Source: Actinophytocola algeriensis (GTDB lineage: Bacteria > Actinomycetota > Actinomycetes > Mycobacteriales > Pseudonocardiaceae). From it: a stretch of 64,000 bases of DNA. Each line of letters begins with the position of its first letter. Position 1 is the stretch's first letter. Positions 53,132 to 61,356 of this stretch are shown piece after piece. Made by a program: the position numbers and the translations under genes. The DNA lies in contig NZ_JACHJQ010000014.1 of the NCBI RefSeq assembly GCF_014203735.1, forward strand, positions 62,001-126,000, in the 5' to 3' direction. A model generated the notes under the pieces. It was given only the letters and a program-made list of their open reading frames with translations, made no database searches and was not told the origin of the DNA.

Positions 53132-54706
53132 ATGTCAGACTACGGCCACGAACTCGAGTTCGGTGTCTTCCTGCCGCCCGCCGCCGACCAGTTCGGCGAG
53201 GCGCTCCGCCTCGCGCGTCTCGCCGACGCGTCCGGGCTGGAGCTGGTCAGCCTCCAGGACCACCCGTACCAGGAGCGGTTCCTGGACACGTGGACGTCGC
53301 TGGCGGTCATCGCCGCCGCGACCGAGAACGTGCGGGTGTTCCCCAACGTCGCGAACCTGCCGCTGCGCCCGCCATCGGTGCTCGCCCGCAGTGCGGCGAG
53401 CCTCGACATCATCACCGGCGGCCGCGTCGAGCTGGGGCTCGGCGCGGGTGCGTTCTGGGACGCGATCGTCGCGATGGGCGGCCCGCGCCGCACCGCGGGC
53501 GAGTCGATCGACGCGCTCGCCGAGGCCATCGAGGTGATCCGCGCGCTGTGGACACCCGGCCGCGGCGCGAAGTTCGAGGGCAAGCACTACACACTGAAGG
53601 GCGCGCACCCCGGCCCGTTCCCCGCGCACGACATCGGGATCTGGCTCGGTGCCTACAAGCCACGCATGCTGCGCCTGGTCGGCCGGACCGCGGACGGCTG
53701 GCTGCCATCGAGCCCGTACGCGCCGCCGGAGCAGCTGACGGACATGAACCGGATCATCGACGAGGCCGCTGCCGCGGCCGGGCGTTCGCCGGCCGACATC
53801 CGCAGGCTCTACAACATCAGCGGCAGCTTCTCCGGCAGCGGCAAGGAGTTCCTGCGCGGTCCGGTGCCGGTGTGGGTCGAGCAGCTCGCCGAGCTCGCGC
53901 TCACCGAGGGGACGAGCGGGTTCGTGCTCATGGTCGACGCCGGTGGCGACGACGACCTGCGCCGCTTCGCCGAGGAGGTCGCGCCGGGGGTGCGTGAGCT
54001 GGTCGACCAGGAACGGAACCTGGGCACGGCCACCACCGGCACTGCCGCCACCACGACCACCGCCGCGCCGCCGGCCGAGGCGCGGCCGGTGGCCGGGTTA
54101 CCGGAGAACCTGGGCGTCACCCCGACACCGGACGACGGCACCCGGCTGTCGCAGGAGCGGCTGTGGGACGAGTCGGTGCGGCCGACCGGTCCCGCGCCCT
54201 CGGCCGACGCGGTCTACACGGCCACCGGGCGTGCCGGCGGCCAGCAGCTGATCGACATCCACGACCACCTGCGTGCCGAGCTGTCGCGGGTGCGGTCGCT
54301 GGTCAAGCAGGTCGCGGACGGCGCACTCGACGTTGGCGCCGCCCGCTCGGAGATCAACACGATGACCATGCGGCAGAACAACTGGACGCTGGGCGCGTTC
54401 TGCGAGAGCTACTGCAGGCTCGTCACCGTGCACCACACCCTCGAGGACCGGCAGCTGTACCCGCAGCTGCGCCGCGGCGACGCCCGGCTCGCCCCGGTGC
54501 TCGACCGGCTGACCGAGGAGCACCACGTCATCCACGACGTCCTGGAACGCGTGGACGCGGCGCTCGTCGCGACGGTCAGCGACCCGTCGGGCATCGTGGA
54601 GCTGTCGGCGGCCGTGGACCTGCTGACCGACACACTTCTGTCCCATTTGTCCTATGAGGAGCGTGAGCTGGTCGAACCCATGGCGCGGCTGCCCATCAGG
54701 CACTGA
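53132..54706 (+). CDS. LLM-class flavin oxidoreductase fused to a hemerythrin-like domain
   Basis: 524 residues from ATG 53132. Residues 1-295 are a luciferase-like monooxygenase (FGVFLPPAADQFGEALRLARLADASGLE, GRVELGLGAGAFWDA, GRTADGWLPSSPY), which uses reduced FMN or F420. A Thr/Ala linker (about 296-315) leads to a C-terminal hemerythrin-type four-helix bundle (about 370-520) with iron-ligand His in IDIHDHL, VHHTLEDRQLYP, EEHHVIHDVL and LSHLSYEERELVEP. A diiron or haem-free oxygen sensor or store beside an oxidase is plausible. The final codons overlap the erythromycin-esterase-like gene. Confidence 0.85.
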   Translation: MSDYGHELEFGVFLPPAADQFGEALRLARLADASGLELVSLQDHPYQERFLDTWTSLAVIAAATENVRVFPNVANLPLRPPSVLARSAASLDIITGGRVELGLGAGAFWDAIVAMGGPRRTAGESIDALAEAIEVIRALWTPGRGAKFEGKHYTLKGAHPGPFPAHDIGIWLGAYKPRMLRLVGRTADGWLPSSPYAPPEQLTDMNRIIDEAAAAAGRSPADIRRLYNISGSFSGSGKEFLRGPVPVWVEQLAELALTEGTSGFVLMVDAGGDDDLRRFAEEVAPGVRELVDQERNLGTATTGTAATTTTAAPPAEARPVAGLPENLGVTPTPDDGTRLSQERLWDESVRPTGPAPSADAVYTATGRAGGQQLIDIHDHLRAELSRVRSLVKQVADGALDVGAARSEINTMTMRQNNWTLGAFCESYCRLVTVHHTLEDRQLYPQLRRGDARLAPVLDRLTEEHHVIHDVLERVDAALVATVSDPSGIVELSAAVDLLTDTLLSHLSYEERELVEPMARLPIRH

Positions 54707-55811
54707 CGTGGAGGACCGCGTCCGCGCCGTCGACGGTGGCCTGGTCGAGCGGGAAGTAGCCCTGCGCCGGGGTGGGGTCGGTGCGGACGCGGCCCGACTC
54801 GACCTCCTCGATCAGGCCCCAGCCGCTGATCCGCTGCTGCAGCAGGCCTTCGAACGTGCCGGGCTCGGGTTCCGCCAGCCCGATCCCGGCGCTGGCACCC
54901 AGACTGCCCGCGACGAACCGGTACTGGTCGCCCAGCAGTTCGCTCACGATCGCGCCCGCGCCGAACCACTCGAGGTCCATGCCCCAGGTGTCCATCGTGG
55001 ACGGATGGCGCTGCAGGTGGCGGTTGTGCGCGAACACCAGCGTCGGTCCCCGCGACGCCTCGATTTCGCGGATGTCCAGCAGGTTCCGCGCCATCATCGC
55101 GTCGCGGACGCCGAGCAGGCGGGACGTGCGCGTGGCCTGGTCGAGCGGTGCCGCCGACTGCCGGTGGTAGCGCAGGAGACCGATGCCCGCGGTGAGGTGC
55201 GTGTGCGCCCGGTACCACTCGGCCAGGGAGGTCTTCGCGATCAGTTCCGGCGCGCGGGTGTACAGCGCGGTGAGCAGATCGTCGGCGAGCAGCCGCAGCC
55301 GGTCCGCCTCGGGCGACGCGCCGGGTGACTCCGTCGCGTCCATGACCGCTTCGGTGCGGCTCCAGCGTTCGTCGTCGCCCGCGGCGAGGTCCGTGTCCAG
55401 GCCGAGGTAGTCGCGGGCGTGTTCGAGGTAGCGGCGCGGGCTGGGTGCGCTGACCATCTCCAGTGGCAGGTCGAAGCCGTGGAACGCCAGCTTCTCGTGC
55501 GCTGGACGGGTTTCGTTGTACTCGCGCAGCCAGCACACCAGCTGCCGGTTGGCGTCCAGCTCGCCAAGCCCGTGTGAGAAACCGTTGCGTAGCACCGGGT
55601 CCAGGTCGCCTGAGCCACTTCGGACGAACTCGTCGACGGTGAGCCCGGCCACCCGGTCGCTCTCGATGGCGATCGACCGGAAGCCGAGCTCGGCCAGCCG
55701 GGCGAACAGACCATTCCGGATCCGCGCGAACGCGGGTTCGAGGTGCGTGGGTTCTCCGTAGGCCAGCACGGAGGTCGCTGCCGTGCGGAACGCGCCGATG
55801 TCCTGAGTCAT
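54696..55811 (-). CDS. Erythromycin esterase-like protein
   Basis: 371 residues of the EreA/EreB family fold. Conserved points: AYGEPTHLEPAF (His), SIAIESDR (Glu), LAFHGFDLP and FAHNRHLQR. True Ere enzymes open the macrolide lactone ring; many homologues have other, unknown substrates. ATG 55811 is the start of the conserved region (MTQDIGAFRTAATS); the open frame further upstream runs through the repeat-peptide region and is not needed. RBS AAAGGC is weak. Its 3' end overlaps the LLM gene. Confidence 0.82.
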   Translation of the reverse strand: MTQDIGAFRTAATSVLAYGEPTHLEPAFARIRNGLFARLAELGFRSIAIESDRVAGLTVDEFVRSGSGDLDPVLRNGFSHGLGELDANRQLVCWLREYNETRPAHEKLAFHGFDLPLEMVSAPSPRRYLEHARDYLGLDTDLAAGDDERWSRTEAVMDATESPGASPEADRLRLLADDLLTALYTRAPELIAKTSLAEWYRAHTHLTAGIGLLRYHRQSAAPLDQATRTSRLLGVRDAMMARNLLDIREIEASRGPTLVFAHNRHLQRHPSTMDTWGMDLEWFGAGAIVSELLGDQYRFVAGSLGASAGIGLAEPEPGTFEGLLQQRISGWGLIEEVESGRVRTDPTPAQGYFPLDQATVDGADAVLHVSA

Positions 55812-55902
55812 GCCTTTGAATCGTATCGTTGAACTTCCACGTTGAGACTTCGTCGCGCTGACCTGTCCCGGCCCACGGCAAAGGCTCAACCAGGGCAAAG
55901 AA

Positions 55903-55941
55903 AAGGGCGTTCGTCGTGCCCCCTGCACGGCGAACGCCCTT
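55903..55941 (-). terminator. Strong intrinsic terminator after the repeat-peptide gene
   Basis: Stem AAGGGCGTTCG/CGAACGCCCTT plus an inner CGTGC/GCACG pair, followed on the minus strand by TTTTCTTT. This is the clearest rho-independent terminator in the window. It begins 17 bp after the peptide stop and ends 92 bp before the esterase-like ATG. Confidence 0.92.
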
Positions 55942-55957
55942 GTCTCGCTGACCGCGG

Positions 55958-56053
55958 TCAGCGCCAGTCTGCCGGGCGGCCGGTACGCCAGTCGGCGGGA
56001 CGGCCCCTGCGCCAGTCGGCAGGGCGGCCTTGAACGGTGGAAGTTGCAGACAT
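55958..56053 (-). CDS. 31-residue peptide with three GRPADWR repeats
   Basis: Minus-strand ATG at 56053, with AAAAGGAGACGCC immediately upstream (AAGGAG at ideal spacing). The product starts MSATSTVQ and continues as three tandem GRPADWR units, separated by R and T, with Arg as the last residue. Between repeats the codons differ at five third-base positions (Arg CGC/CGT, Pro CCT/CCC/CCG, Ala GCC/GCA) and never change the amino acid, which indicates selection on the peptide. A strong terminator follows at 55903-55941. No maturation enzyme is next to it. Two readings: a multi-core peptide precursor, or the leader of an attenuator controlling the downstream erythromycin-esterase-like gene. Confidence 0.75.
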   Translation of the reverse strand: MSATSTVQGRPADWRRGRPADWRTGRPADWR

Positions 56054-56161
56054 GGCGTCTCCTTTTGGGTGCTGTGAACCGGGGGGCGATCACTCTTTTG
56101 GAGCACGACACTCGGTTGCCGAGCCGTTACAGTTGGGGACCTCCGTTGAAGGGAAACGGCG

Positions 56162-57547
56162 GTGCACGGCGTGGATCATCCCGACCCCGTGCAGGGGTGG
56201 AAGCGGCTCTCACCACGCCGTTGGCATATATGGTCCCTGCCCCGGTCCGTGCTGGTATACGTCTTAACGGTCGAAATCGCCGCGGCAGGCATCGTAGCGG
56301 GCACCGTGAACCTGACCCCGGTCACCCGCCAGGACTGGATCTGGTTCGGTCTGCTCGTACTGGCCGCGGTCGCGCACCTCGAAGCGTCGAGCGGGATCGA
56401 GCGGATCCGGGAGATCAGCTCGGAAGGCTCGCCGCACAACCACCTCCAGTCGGTGTGGTTCTTCGCGAGCGTGCTGCTCCTGCCGCCACCACTGATCGCC
56501 GCCCTCATCCTGATCAGTTACACACATTCGTGGCTCCGGGTCTACCAGCGGCGGGCGCTCACGCACCGCAAGGCCTTCTCCGCGGCGACGGTCGTGCTCG
56601 CCTGCGCCGCCGCCTACGCCGTGCTCACCGCGATCTACCCCGGCACCGAGTCCTTCGCGCTCGCGCTCGACGGGCCGCTCGCGCTCGCCGCCATCACCGC
56701 GGCCGGTGCGCTGTACCGGCTCGTGAACTACGGGCTCGTGGTGCTGGTGCTCATCGCCACCAACCCGGACCGCCCGGCGCGCAAGGCACTCGGGCACGCC
56801 AGCGACCAGTTGATGATCGCGGGCGCGGTCGGGCTCGCCACCGGCATCGCCGTCGTGATGACCACGCGGCCGTGGTGGACACCGCTGCTGATCGTCACCG
56901 TGCTCGCGCTGCACACCGGGTTGCTGCTGCCGCAGTTCCGGGACGCGTCCCGCACCGACGCCAAGACCGGCCTGTTCGAGCCGACGTTCTGGGCCGAGCT
57001 GACGAGCGACGAGCTGGACCGGGCGAAGCGGCTCGGCGGCACGCTCGGTGTGCTGCTGCTGGACCTCGACCACTTCAAGCGGGTCAACGACGGCTACGGG
57101 CACCTGGCGGGCGACATGGTGCTGCGCGCGGTCGCCGACGCGATCAAGCATTCGGTGCGCGGGCACGACATGGTGGGCCGGTACGGCGGCGAGGAGTTCG
57201 CCATCGTGGTGCCCGGCATGGAGGTCGACGACGTGCGCGGCGCGGCCGAGCGGGTGCGGGCGGCGATCGCCGGGCTGATGGTGACCGTGCCGGACCTCGA
57301 CGGGGACACCCGGGTCGTCAGCGGGCTCACGGCGTCCGTCGGTGCCGCGGTGTACCCGGACCACGGGGCCGACCGGACGTCGCTGCTGCTGGCCGCGGAC
57401 GCCGCACTGTACGACGCGAAGACCGCGGGCCGTGACTGCACGCGGATCGCGGGCGAGACCCGGAAGGATGTGCCGGAGGCGCGCAAACCGGGGCAGTACA
57501 GCCCGCGGCTAGGTCTCGTTCGCGACGACACGGACAAGGTCTCGTAG
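56162..57547 (+). CDS. Membrane diguanylate cyclase (GGDEF)
   Basis: 461 residues. Five to six membrane helices (about 28-250) form a sensor of unknown ligand. The GGDEF domain (about 266-435) has DAKTGLFEP, LDLDHFKRVNDGYGHLAGD and an intact active site GGEEF (about 342). RGHD lies five residues before it and fits the inhibitory I-site (RxxD). It makes cyclic di-GMP, which in streptomycetes controls development through BldD. GTG start at 56162. Overlaps the convergent LysR gene by 39 bp. Confidence 0.92.
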   Translation: MHGVDHPDPVQGWKRLSPRRWHIWSLPRSVLVYVLTVEIAAAGIVAGTVNLTPVTRQDWIWFGLLVLAAVAHLEASSGIERIREISSEGSPHNHLQSVWFFASVLLLPPPLIAALILISYTHSWLRVYQRRALTHRKAFSAATVVLACAAAYAVLTAIYPGTESFALALDGPLALAAITAAGALYRLVNYGLVVLVLIATNPDRPARKALGHASDQLMIAGAVGLATGIAVVMTTRPWWTPLLIVTVLALHTGLLLPQFRDASRTDAKTGLFEPTFWAELTSDELDRAKRLGGTLGVLLLDLDHFKRVNDGYGHLAGDMVLRAVADAIKHSVRGHDMVGRYGGEEFAIVVPGMEVDDVRGAAERVRAAIAGLMVTVPDLDGDTRVVSGLTASVGAAVYPDHGADRTSLLLAADAALYDAKTAGRDCTRIAGETRKDVPEARKPGQYSPRLGLVRDDTDKVS

Positions 57548-60078: not shown

Positions 60079-61356
60079 CTATGCGCGCGATGCATTCAGG
60101 GTGTGGGCGTGGCCGCCCGCCGTCCGCCAGGTCCAGCCGATCGCCAGCACCGCCAGCACGCCGAGCAGCCCGGCGGACCCCACGACCTGGTGCGGTGCGG
60201 CGACTTCCGCGGCCAGGCCCGCGAGCATCACCCCGAGGCCCTGCGCCACCCGCAACGCGGTCACGGCGAGCCCGAACGCCTGGCCGCGCCGCTCGTCCGG
60301 CACCGCCAGCACGAACGACGTCGACGCGATCACCTGGTAGGCGCTGCCGGCACCGGACGCCACGAACAACAGCACCACCAGCACGAGGTGCGGGTCGGTG
60401 AAGCACACCACGAGCGGCACGCACGCCCCGAGCGCGAGCGGCGACAGCAACCGCAGCCGCGCCGGCAGCGGAAGCCGCGCGACGAGCAGCATCCCGGCCG
60501 CGGCACCAGCCGCGTACGCGGCGAACATGAACCCGACCAGGACCGCGCCGCCGCCGAGCGCGTCCGCGTACGGCACGGCCAGCGCCTCGCCGGCGATGTA
60601 GAACCCGGACGCGCACGCGAACAGCACGAGCGCCCGCAGTCGCAGGTCGGTCCACACAAGGCCGGCGCCGTGGGTGAGGTCGGTCCACCACGTCCGCCGC
60701 GCCGCGGACCCGCTCGGCCCGTCCGCCTCCGGCACCGGGCGCGGCCGCACCAGCCACCACACCAGCGTCGCCGACAACAGGAACGTGCCTGCGTCCGCGA
60801 GCAGTACACCGCTCGTGCCGATCGTCGCGACGAGCGCGCCACCACCGGCGAACCCGAGCACCATCGCGGCCTGCGTGACGGTCTGCATCACCGCCTGGCC
60901 CGCCGGGTAGTGGTCCTCGCCCAGCACGGCGGGCAGCAGCGCGCCGCGGGCCGCGTTGGCCGGCGCGCCGATCAGCTGCACGGCCACCAGCAGCACGCAC
61001 ACCACCCACAACGGCGCGCCCGGCACCGCCATCGCCGCGACCAGCAGCATGCGGGTGAGGTCGACGGTCACCATCAACCCACGGCGCGGGTGCCGGTCGG
61101 CGAGACCGGACAGCAGCGGGCCGCCGACGAGGTCGGGCAGGAACGTCAGGCCGTACGTGAGCGCGGTCCACGCGGGTGAACCGGTGCGGTCGAACACGAG
61201 CACGGACAGGGCGACCCGGGCGAACTGGTCGCCGACGATCGACACCGAATGGGCGAAGAAAAGCGCGCGAAACTCGGACTTTCCGAATAACGCGCGGTAT
61301 CTGACCGGCGAGTCGGTAGCCACGAGGCCTCCCCAGTACCCGCTACTTTCCGCCAT
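60079..61356 (-). CDS. MFS transporter
   Basis: 425 residues, about 12 helices. Starts with ALFGKSEFRALFFAHSVSIVGDQFARVALSVLVFDRTGS, as in the MFS_3 family; the conserved loop GLADRHPRRGLMVTVDLTR is present. Divergent from the DGPF/ECF42 unit. Substrate unknown. Confidence 0.88.
   Translation of the reverse strand: MAESSGYWGGLVATDSPVRYRALFGKSEFRALFFAHSVSIVGDQFARVALSVLVFDRTGSPAWTALTYGLTFLPDLVGGPLLSGLADRHPRRGLMVTVDLTRMLLVAAMAVPGAPLWVVCVLLVAVQLIGAPANAARGALLPAVLGEDHYPAGQAVMQTVTQAAMVLGFAGGGALVATIGTSGVLLADAGTFLLSATLVWWLVRPRPVPEADGPSGSAARRTWWTDLTHGAGLVWTDLRLRALVLFACASGFYIAGEALAVPYADALGGGAVLVGFMFAAYAAGAAAGMLLVARLPLPARLRLLSPLALGACVPLVVCFTDPHLVLVVLLFVASGAGSAYQVIASTSFVLAVPDERRGQAFGLAVTALRVAQGLGVMLAGLAAEVAAPHQVVGSAGLLGVLAVLAIGWTWRTAGGHAHTLNASRA

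Follow-up and report, generated by a model that had tools for sequence, protein, structure and literature searches.

Comparison across actinobacterial genomes shows that a 31-codon gene of Actinophytocola algeriensis, located at positions 55958..56053 (minus strand) of the 64,000-nucleotide stretch of DNA analysed here (the window), belongs to what turns out to be a broad actinobacterial family of predicted Trp-centred mini-peptides, made either as repeats within one protein or as rows of separate genes of 6-8 codons. Judged from these comparisons, the mini-peptides appear to be translated and multi-copy, and to be inherited together with a membrane diguanylate cyclase and, in many cases, an MFS transporter. 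The family is apparently new to description: no such peptide system was described in the titles and abstract openings of the open-licence literature matches listed.

Results

The mini-peptide gene of A. algeriensis

Translation of the minus strand from 56053 to 55958 gave MSATSTVQGRPADWRRGRPADWRTGRPADWR, followed by a stop codon. This is the ORF with three GRPADWR units that the initial annotation had placed at exactly this interval, without giving its strand. Between the three 7-codon units there are five third-codon changes (R, P twice, A and R), none of which alters a residue; the annotation was right about the five silent changes but had spread them over five codon positions, where there are four. 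Its AAGGAG ribosome-binding site (56059..56064, minus strand) was found 5 nt before the ATG, and the terminator-like hairpin that it had noted 3' of the ORF was borne out by the sequence and by RNAfold: the hairpin begins about 17 nt past the stop codon, runs as a long stem from about 55941 to 55904 (minus strand) and is followed by TTTTCTTT. The 70 nt after the stop folded with a z-score of -4.5, and the 261-nt segment as a whole folded only slightly better than its own shuffles (z = -1.6). A simple terminator scan of positions 54500-57500 did not report the hairpin at 55904-55941. Rfam gave only sub-threshold matches in the same interval, so that no known RNA element was found there; a match to the c-di-GMP-II-GCG riboswitch at 56818-56908 (minus strand), antisense inside the neighbouring GGDEF gene, scored 27.3 bits against a threshold of 47.9 and is probably due to chance. 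Pfam and NCBIfam returned nothing above a curated cut-off for the window peptide and seven relatives, the best sub-cut-off family match among these peptides being to a thr leader, in one relative (E 0.0073).

Homologues of the peptide and their downstream genes

Among 390 genomes from the family to which the window belongs, seven matches were obtained at E <= 0.001, the window's own counted among them; one of the seven, in G205, had no such motif at its locus. Six relatives carried the motif opposite the same GGDEF gene, namely G003 and G004, which belong to the window's genus and encode the peptides MSSTKNTGRPAEWRTGRPAEWR and MFATVTTKTGRPRDHRTGRPTEWR respectively, and four genomes of genus g7, each with two or three RPNDWR units. 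The G004 locus came from a further same-genus match outside the seven at E <= 0.001. The homologues and conserved neighbour that the initial annotation had proposed looking for were thus both found, and the order of ribosome site, ORF and hairpin recurs in relatives as well. A DNA pattern scan of one genome per species (84,980 species, a set from which the window's own record may be missing) detected five loci, two of them in Actinophytocola records and the other three in Saccharothrix records, and no tblastn homologue was present on plasmids at E <= 1.

The gene downstream of the peptide ORF differed between these loci. It is a macrolide-esterase-like gene of the erythromycin-esterase family in the window (54696-55811, minus strand; PF05139), a luciferase-like/hemerythrin gene in G003 and G004, and elsewhere a gene for a SARP regulator, a multicopper oxidase or, in two cases, an ABC-F protein (names that, except for PF05139, are our own reading). 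In the window, the esterase gene sits between the peptide gene and a luciferase-like/hemerythrin gene, the direct follower in G003 and G004, as if it had been inserted. An attenuation leader had been among the roles suggested by the initial annotation, and the layout of the window, with a leader-sized ORF, a hairpin and a same-strand esterase-family gene, is consistent with leader control of the latter. However, all six closest relatives have another gene at this place, and in all but one of them it is oriented against the ORF. Because the downstream gene varies in this manner, the family as a whole does not serve as a leader for the esterase gene, and we find an attenuation role at that gene scarcely credible.

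A wider family of Trp mini-peptides

The membrane N-terminus of the GGDEF protein served as the anchor for a wider search. It matched 224 of the 390 family genomes at E <= 1e-30 and, in a class-wide sample of 394 genomes, 30, the window's own included. Opposite many of these GGDEF relatives lay very small ORFs, preceded by ribosome sites and built from repeats of a Trp unit, of types including GRPNDWR, GRPSEWR, RPNDWQ, GRPTDWS, STDWTF, GNEWTF, GNEWFA, PTDWTR, SEWH, GSEWH, SNNWYR, RENTW and DSNWVR; one 49-residue ORF held six copies of the STDWT unit. In family f22, perhaps the Micromonosporaceae, the units were mostly encoded by separate 7-codon genes (MRDNTWT, MRDTTWS, MRGNSWD, MRANSWD), arranged in rows of 2-8 with a ribosome-like site before each. 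A second GGDEF locus in the window's own genome carries a pair of 6-codon genes (MTNKDW and MMNKDW), with GGGAGGAGG preceding each; no peptide was found at the two other GGDEF paralogues of this genome (L167 and L168). Paralogous GGDEF genes within single genomes carried peptides of their own (G070, G075, G563, G491), and peptide type tracked GGDEF clade, as judged by eye.

Across the family the consensus is about R-[GPDS]-[NTS]-[EDNTH]-W-[TRS], and the residues that follow Trp vary widely between units. Some units have lost the Trp (GRPNDRR in G058, GRPRDHR in G004, GRPNAGR in G001), and only one copy of the peptide is present in G115 and in G408. Two deep GGDEF paralogues, L108 (G316) and L109 (G322), had mini-ORFs such as MRNKHWH (in L109, with a GTG-start counterpart in L108), a further type of Trp peptide. 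Relatives encode each unit as a separate gene, so that the functional product is probably not the chain but the short unit, a Trp peptide some 6-8 residues in length.

Linkage of the peptides to GGDEF loci

We analyzed 135 regions opposite GGDEF relatives, made up of the 30 best family matches, 60 regions hand-chosen for genera and paralogues, 29 class matches, 13 second copies and three paralogues from the window's own genome. A strict scanner, which requires a ribosome-like site, detected peptides in 93 of the 135 (65 with a repeated-Trp ORF and 30 with a mini-ORF row, two having both), in what is a non-random sample where close relatives are counted singly and presence and absence are uncorrected for phylogeny. 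By comparison, each of ten dinucleotide shuffles gave 0-2 of 135 and the reverse strand 1 of 135. Among control upstream regions 3 of 178 were positive, two of them being genuine loci of this kind that had slipped past the filter. One false positive, L155_G256, is included in the 93 and in the pS/pN values below, and was omitted from the unit survey, the folding, spacing and ribosome-site counts and the 58-locus MFS counts. The 42 scanner negatives include real members, with ORFs longer than 80 residues (G100, G087), degenerate repeats (G004, G001) or single copies (G115, G408), and many are distant GGDEF homologues at which no peptide was found (e.g. L160-L165).

Whole-genome scans for the codons of individual motifs gave the same picture. 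MRDNTW codons matched 38 times in 7 of 22 f22 genomes, in 38 of 38 cases beside a GGDEF gene; STDWTF codons matched 41 times in 9 of 24 genomes, with 39 of the 41 beside a GGDEF relative; and tandem GNEW pairs matched 37 times in 7 of 8 genomes, all 37 beside a GGDEF relative, positions being compared by eye throughout. Reversed control patterns gave zero matches in these scans. The two STDWTF matches away from GGDEF relatives were single ones, at G232:C3:293826 and G244:C154:3651. Thus, the motifs occur almost only at GGDEF loci in the three genome groups scanned.

Partner genes: a diguanylate cyclase and an MFS transporter

The gene divergent from the window ORF (56162..57547, plus strand) encodes a predicted membrane diguanylate cyclase (PF00990, 7e-37), in which about six hydrophobic segments, by hydropathy, precede a GGDEF domain. 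The part of the window protein that holds the GGEEF active site and the RxxD (RGHD) I-site reads VRGHDMVGRYGGEEF, and both motifs are conserved in the alignment of relatives. On this basis the neighbour has the predicted active site and I-site of a diguanylate cyclase. Of 14 relatives scanned, 2 gave a weak MASE9 match at the N-terminus (best E 8e-4), which in one member scored 19.8 bits where the gathering cut-off is 24.3; the proteins resemble MASE-type membrane diguanylate cyclases in joining a multi-pass N-terminus to a GGDEF domain, with weak sequence similarity. Matches of the N-terminal profile in the PDB (endothelin receptor, E 0.18 and up) were weak and taken as chance.

An MFS transporter gene (60079..61356, minus strand; PF07690, 3e-27; TIGR00900, 6e-43) is found in the window at a distance of 2.5 kb from the GGDEF gene, with a LysR gene and two SDR genes in between. 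It is H+ antiporter-, EntS- and MefA-like, its matches to TIGR00900, EntS and MefA all falling below the curated cut-offs. Gene clustering of 25 regions (24 of 10 kb and the 13.5-kb region of the window) placed a GGDEF gene in 25 of 25 and an MFS gene in 19 of 25, to which tblastn added one further region, G111. All other clusters were found in at most 2 of the 25 regions, save two, in three and four regions, that were confined to the window's genus. The initial annotation had therefore missed the conserved partners of the ORF, the divergent GGDEF gene and the MFS gene, and its remark that no modifying enzyme is adjacent extends to the family, in so far as none recurs across genera in these 25 regions.

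Presence of the peptide and of the MFS gene was compared in 58 loci, each taken with roughly 1.5 kb of sequence to either side, a few of them truncated at contig ends. Both were present in 35 loci, the peptide alone in five and the MFS gene alone in three, while 15 loci had neither (Fisher p = 3e-7, with no correction for phylogeny). In two of the five peptide-alone loci (the window and G003) an MFS gene is present further away, and at the three MFS-alone loci (G004, G001, G395) peptides are present in degenerate or single form, which escapes the scanner. Two same-genus GGDEF orthologues, L130 (G002) and L182 (G005), had no recognisable peptide and no MFS gene within about 10 kb, a possible joint loss. 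In the paralogue L166 of the window's own genome (L166:3832-6576, minus strand), MFS and GGDEF parts share one open frame of 914 residues; we did not accept this as a fusion, since the linker is antisense to two good 6-codon mini-ORFs and the open frame may therefore be accidental.

Evidence for translation and selection

In the poly-repeat regions, unit spacings of up to 45 nt, which fall inside the ORFs, were measured in any frame and had ten different lengths, and all 163 of them were multiples of three. Six longer spacings (54, 72 three times and 70 twice, the last not a multiple of three) belonged to two loci, G615 and G089b, whose small ORFs are separate; the G615 locus, L143, holds a run of N, so that the four copies counted there may be two plus two. 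Spacings between the mini-ORFs of arrays were distributed over the three frames as 48/27/24. When the poly-repeat search was repeated without the requirement for a ribosome-like site, 68 of the 70 ORFs found had a 4-nt site and 59 of 70 a 5-nt site, compared with 361 and 185, respectively, of the 976 ATGs in the same regions.

The initial annotation had argued from the silent differences of the window repeats that the peptide is under selection at the amino-acid level, and the mostly synonymous differences in relatives agree with this. For the codons before Trp, within-gene comparison gave a pS of 0.48 and a pN of 0.028 in 63 poly-repeat regions, and 0.19 and 0.028 in 30 array regions, with pN lowered by construction, as units were selected as repeats of a Trp-containing triplet. 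In MRGNSWD arrays the Ser codon was either AGC or TCC, which are two base changes apart, and Ser was kept.

A promoter-like motif and a folded 3' region

A candidate promoter with the two-box layout of ECF sigma promoters, GTAAC-N16-GTC, lies at 56107..56130 (minus strand) in the window. The motif GTAA-N17-GTC was found in 47 of 135 regions, compared with a mean of 1.4 and a maximum of 3 in shuffles, and GTAAC-N16-GTC in 18 of 135, where four other spacings tried gave 0-3. By group, the wider motif was nearly absent from genus g25 (1 of 24 regions) and from family f22 (1 of 30), and was present in 45 of the 81 regions elsewhere. The motif looks like an ECF sigma promoter. The BldN site is CGTAAC-N16-CGTTGA (PMC2375139); BldN-type promoters are alike in their GTAA-type upstream and GTC/GTT-type downstream boxes, but the spacing of the family motif is one base shorter, and a BldN-type promoter was rejected on this difference.

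The 70 nt past the stop codon had a median folding z of -3.2 in 62 poly-repeat regions, with 68% below -2, whereas control segments further on (61 regions) had a median of -0.15, with 8% below -2. Taken together, comparison with relatives shows the peptide gene as a separate small unit with its own ribosome site, hairpin and often two-box motif, situated opposite a putative diguanylate cyclase and usually near an MFS gene.

Discussion

Secreted and regulatory peptides and a ribosomally synthesised, modified product (RiPP) were all considered by the initial annotation; each still stands, with a secreted or signal peptide as the option that we now favour. Since the transporter and the membrane sensor enzyme are the constant partners of the peptide, an exported and sensed signal is the reading they point to: the Trp unit would be released as a short peptide, the MFS protein would export it, and the membrane N-terminus of the diguanylate cyclase would sense it and so alter c-di-GMP. 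We hold this sequence of events to be plausible, if tentatively. Copy number is raised by repeating the unit within one ORF, as in the window, or by repeating whole 7-codon genes with their own ribosome sites, and the module might couple a dose-dependent peptide to a c-di-GMP-controlled developmental or biofilm switch. Still more tentatively, we propose that the mini-genes and repeat precursors form a bacterial peptide-hormone-like system, in which the Trp peptide, exported by the MFS protein, would set c-di-GMP through sensing by the diguanylate cyclase. Peptide quorum-sensing modules likewise hold genes for a peptide, a transporter and a membrane sensor together, and all three are co-located here, the MFS protein being a candidate exporter; the difference is that the predicted sensor is a diguanylate cyclase and the predicted exporter an MFS protein. 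No signal peptide or processing protease was apparent with the peptide genes in an unsystematic look. In eukaryotic repeat precursors such as yeast alpha-factor and FMRFamide, near-identical short units are separated by variable spacers within one precursor; the Trp family differs from these in being bacterial, in having no signal peptide or clear protease site that we saw and in its alternative rows of mini-genes.

The same linkage to GGDEF and MFS genes would also fit peptides that stay inside the cell as small regulators binding the membrane diguanylate cyclase or the MFS protein, with repeats that merely raise the dose, and the lack of an apparent signal sequence agrees with such a role. 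Very short unmodified peptides are, however, usually degraded in the cytosol, and the recurrence of an exporter-type MFS protein would by itself be left unexplained; we regard intracellular regulators as rather unlikely. Action at the RNA level, in which translation of many Trp codons or mini-ORFs would act as a sensor or as a sink for ribosomes or tRNA, could draw on the Trp codon of nearly every unit, the mini-ORF rows and the hairpin after the stop. Yet the residues around Trp are kept through synonymous changes, rows of mini-ORFs replace fused ORFs between lineages, so that initiation events change while the peptide unit is kept, and there is no consistent downstream gene for control in cis, all of which makes this reading improbable. 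It is more improbable still that the repeat binds and buffers c-di-GMP: RPAD and RPND resemble an RxxD motif, and a diguanylate cyclase is adjacent, but the STDWTF, GNEWTF and SEWH types occupy the same position without RxxD and G003 has RPAE, and we rejected a c-di-GMP-binding RxxD peptide on these grounds.

A RiPP precursor whose modifying enzyme is encoded elsewhere in the genome is, in our estimate, unlikely. In its favour, the tiny, multi-copy, aromatic precursors resemble those of the biarylitides, the nearest known system in gene size: bytA precursors have five residues and an 18-bp gene, with six copies in one strain (PMC13417212). Likeness extends to genes so short, at some five codons, that automatic detection misses them, to multiple copies in some strains and to an aromatic residue. 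Against it, biarylitide precursors are MxYxY/H-like, with aromatics at positions 3 and 5, and are accompanied by a cytochrome P450 (PMC13417212), whereas the Trp family has one Trp, no recurrent enzyme and GGDEF and MFS partners. The units found (MRDNTWT, MRGNSWD, MTNKDW, GRPADWR and others) lack the MxYxY/H pattern, fused multi-repeat forms are common, unlike in biarylitides, and clustering of the 25 regions gave no recurrent P450 gene, GGDEF and MFS being the sole clusters that recur across many genera. The residues after Trp are, moreover, highly variable.

Genes of seven codons are below the reach of usual gene prediction, and comparison can reveal them. If the exported-signal reading is true, these loci would represent a new broad class of translated mini-genes in actinobacteria, with single genes among the smallest known (the 6-codon MTNKDW and MMNKDW). 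The input signals of most membrane diguanylate cyclases are unknown, and the Trp peptides would then be candidates for such a signal in one group of these enzymes.
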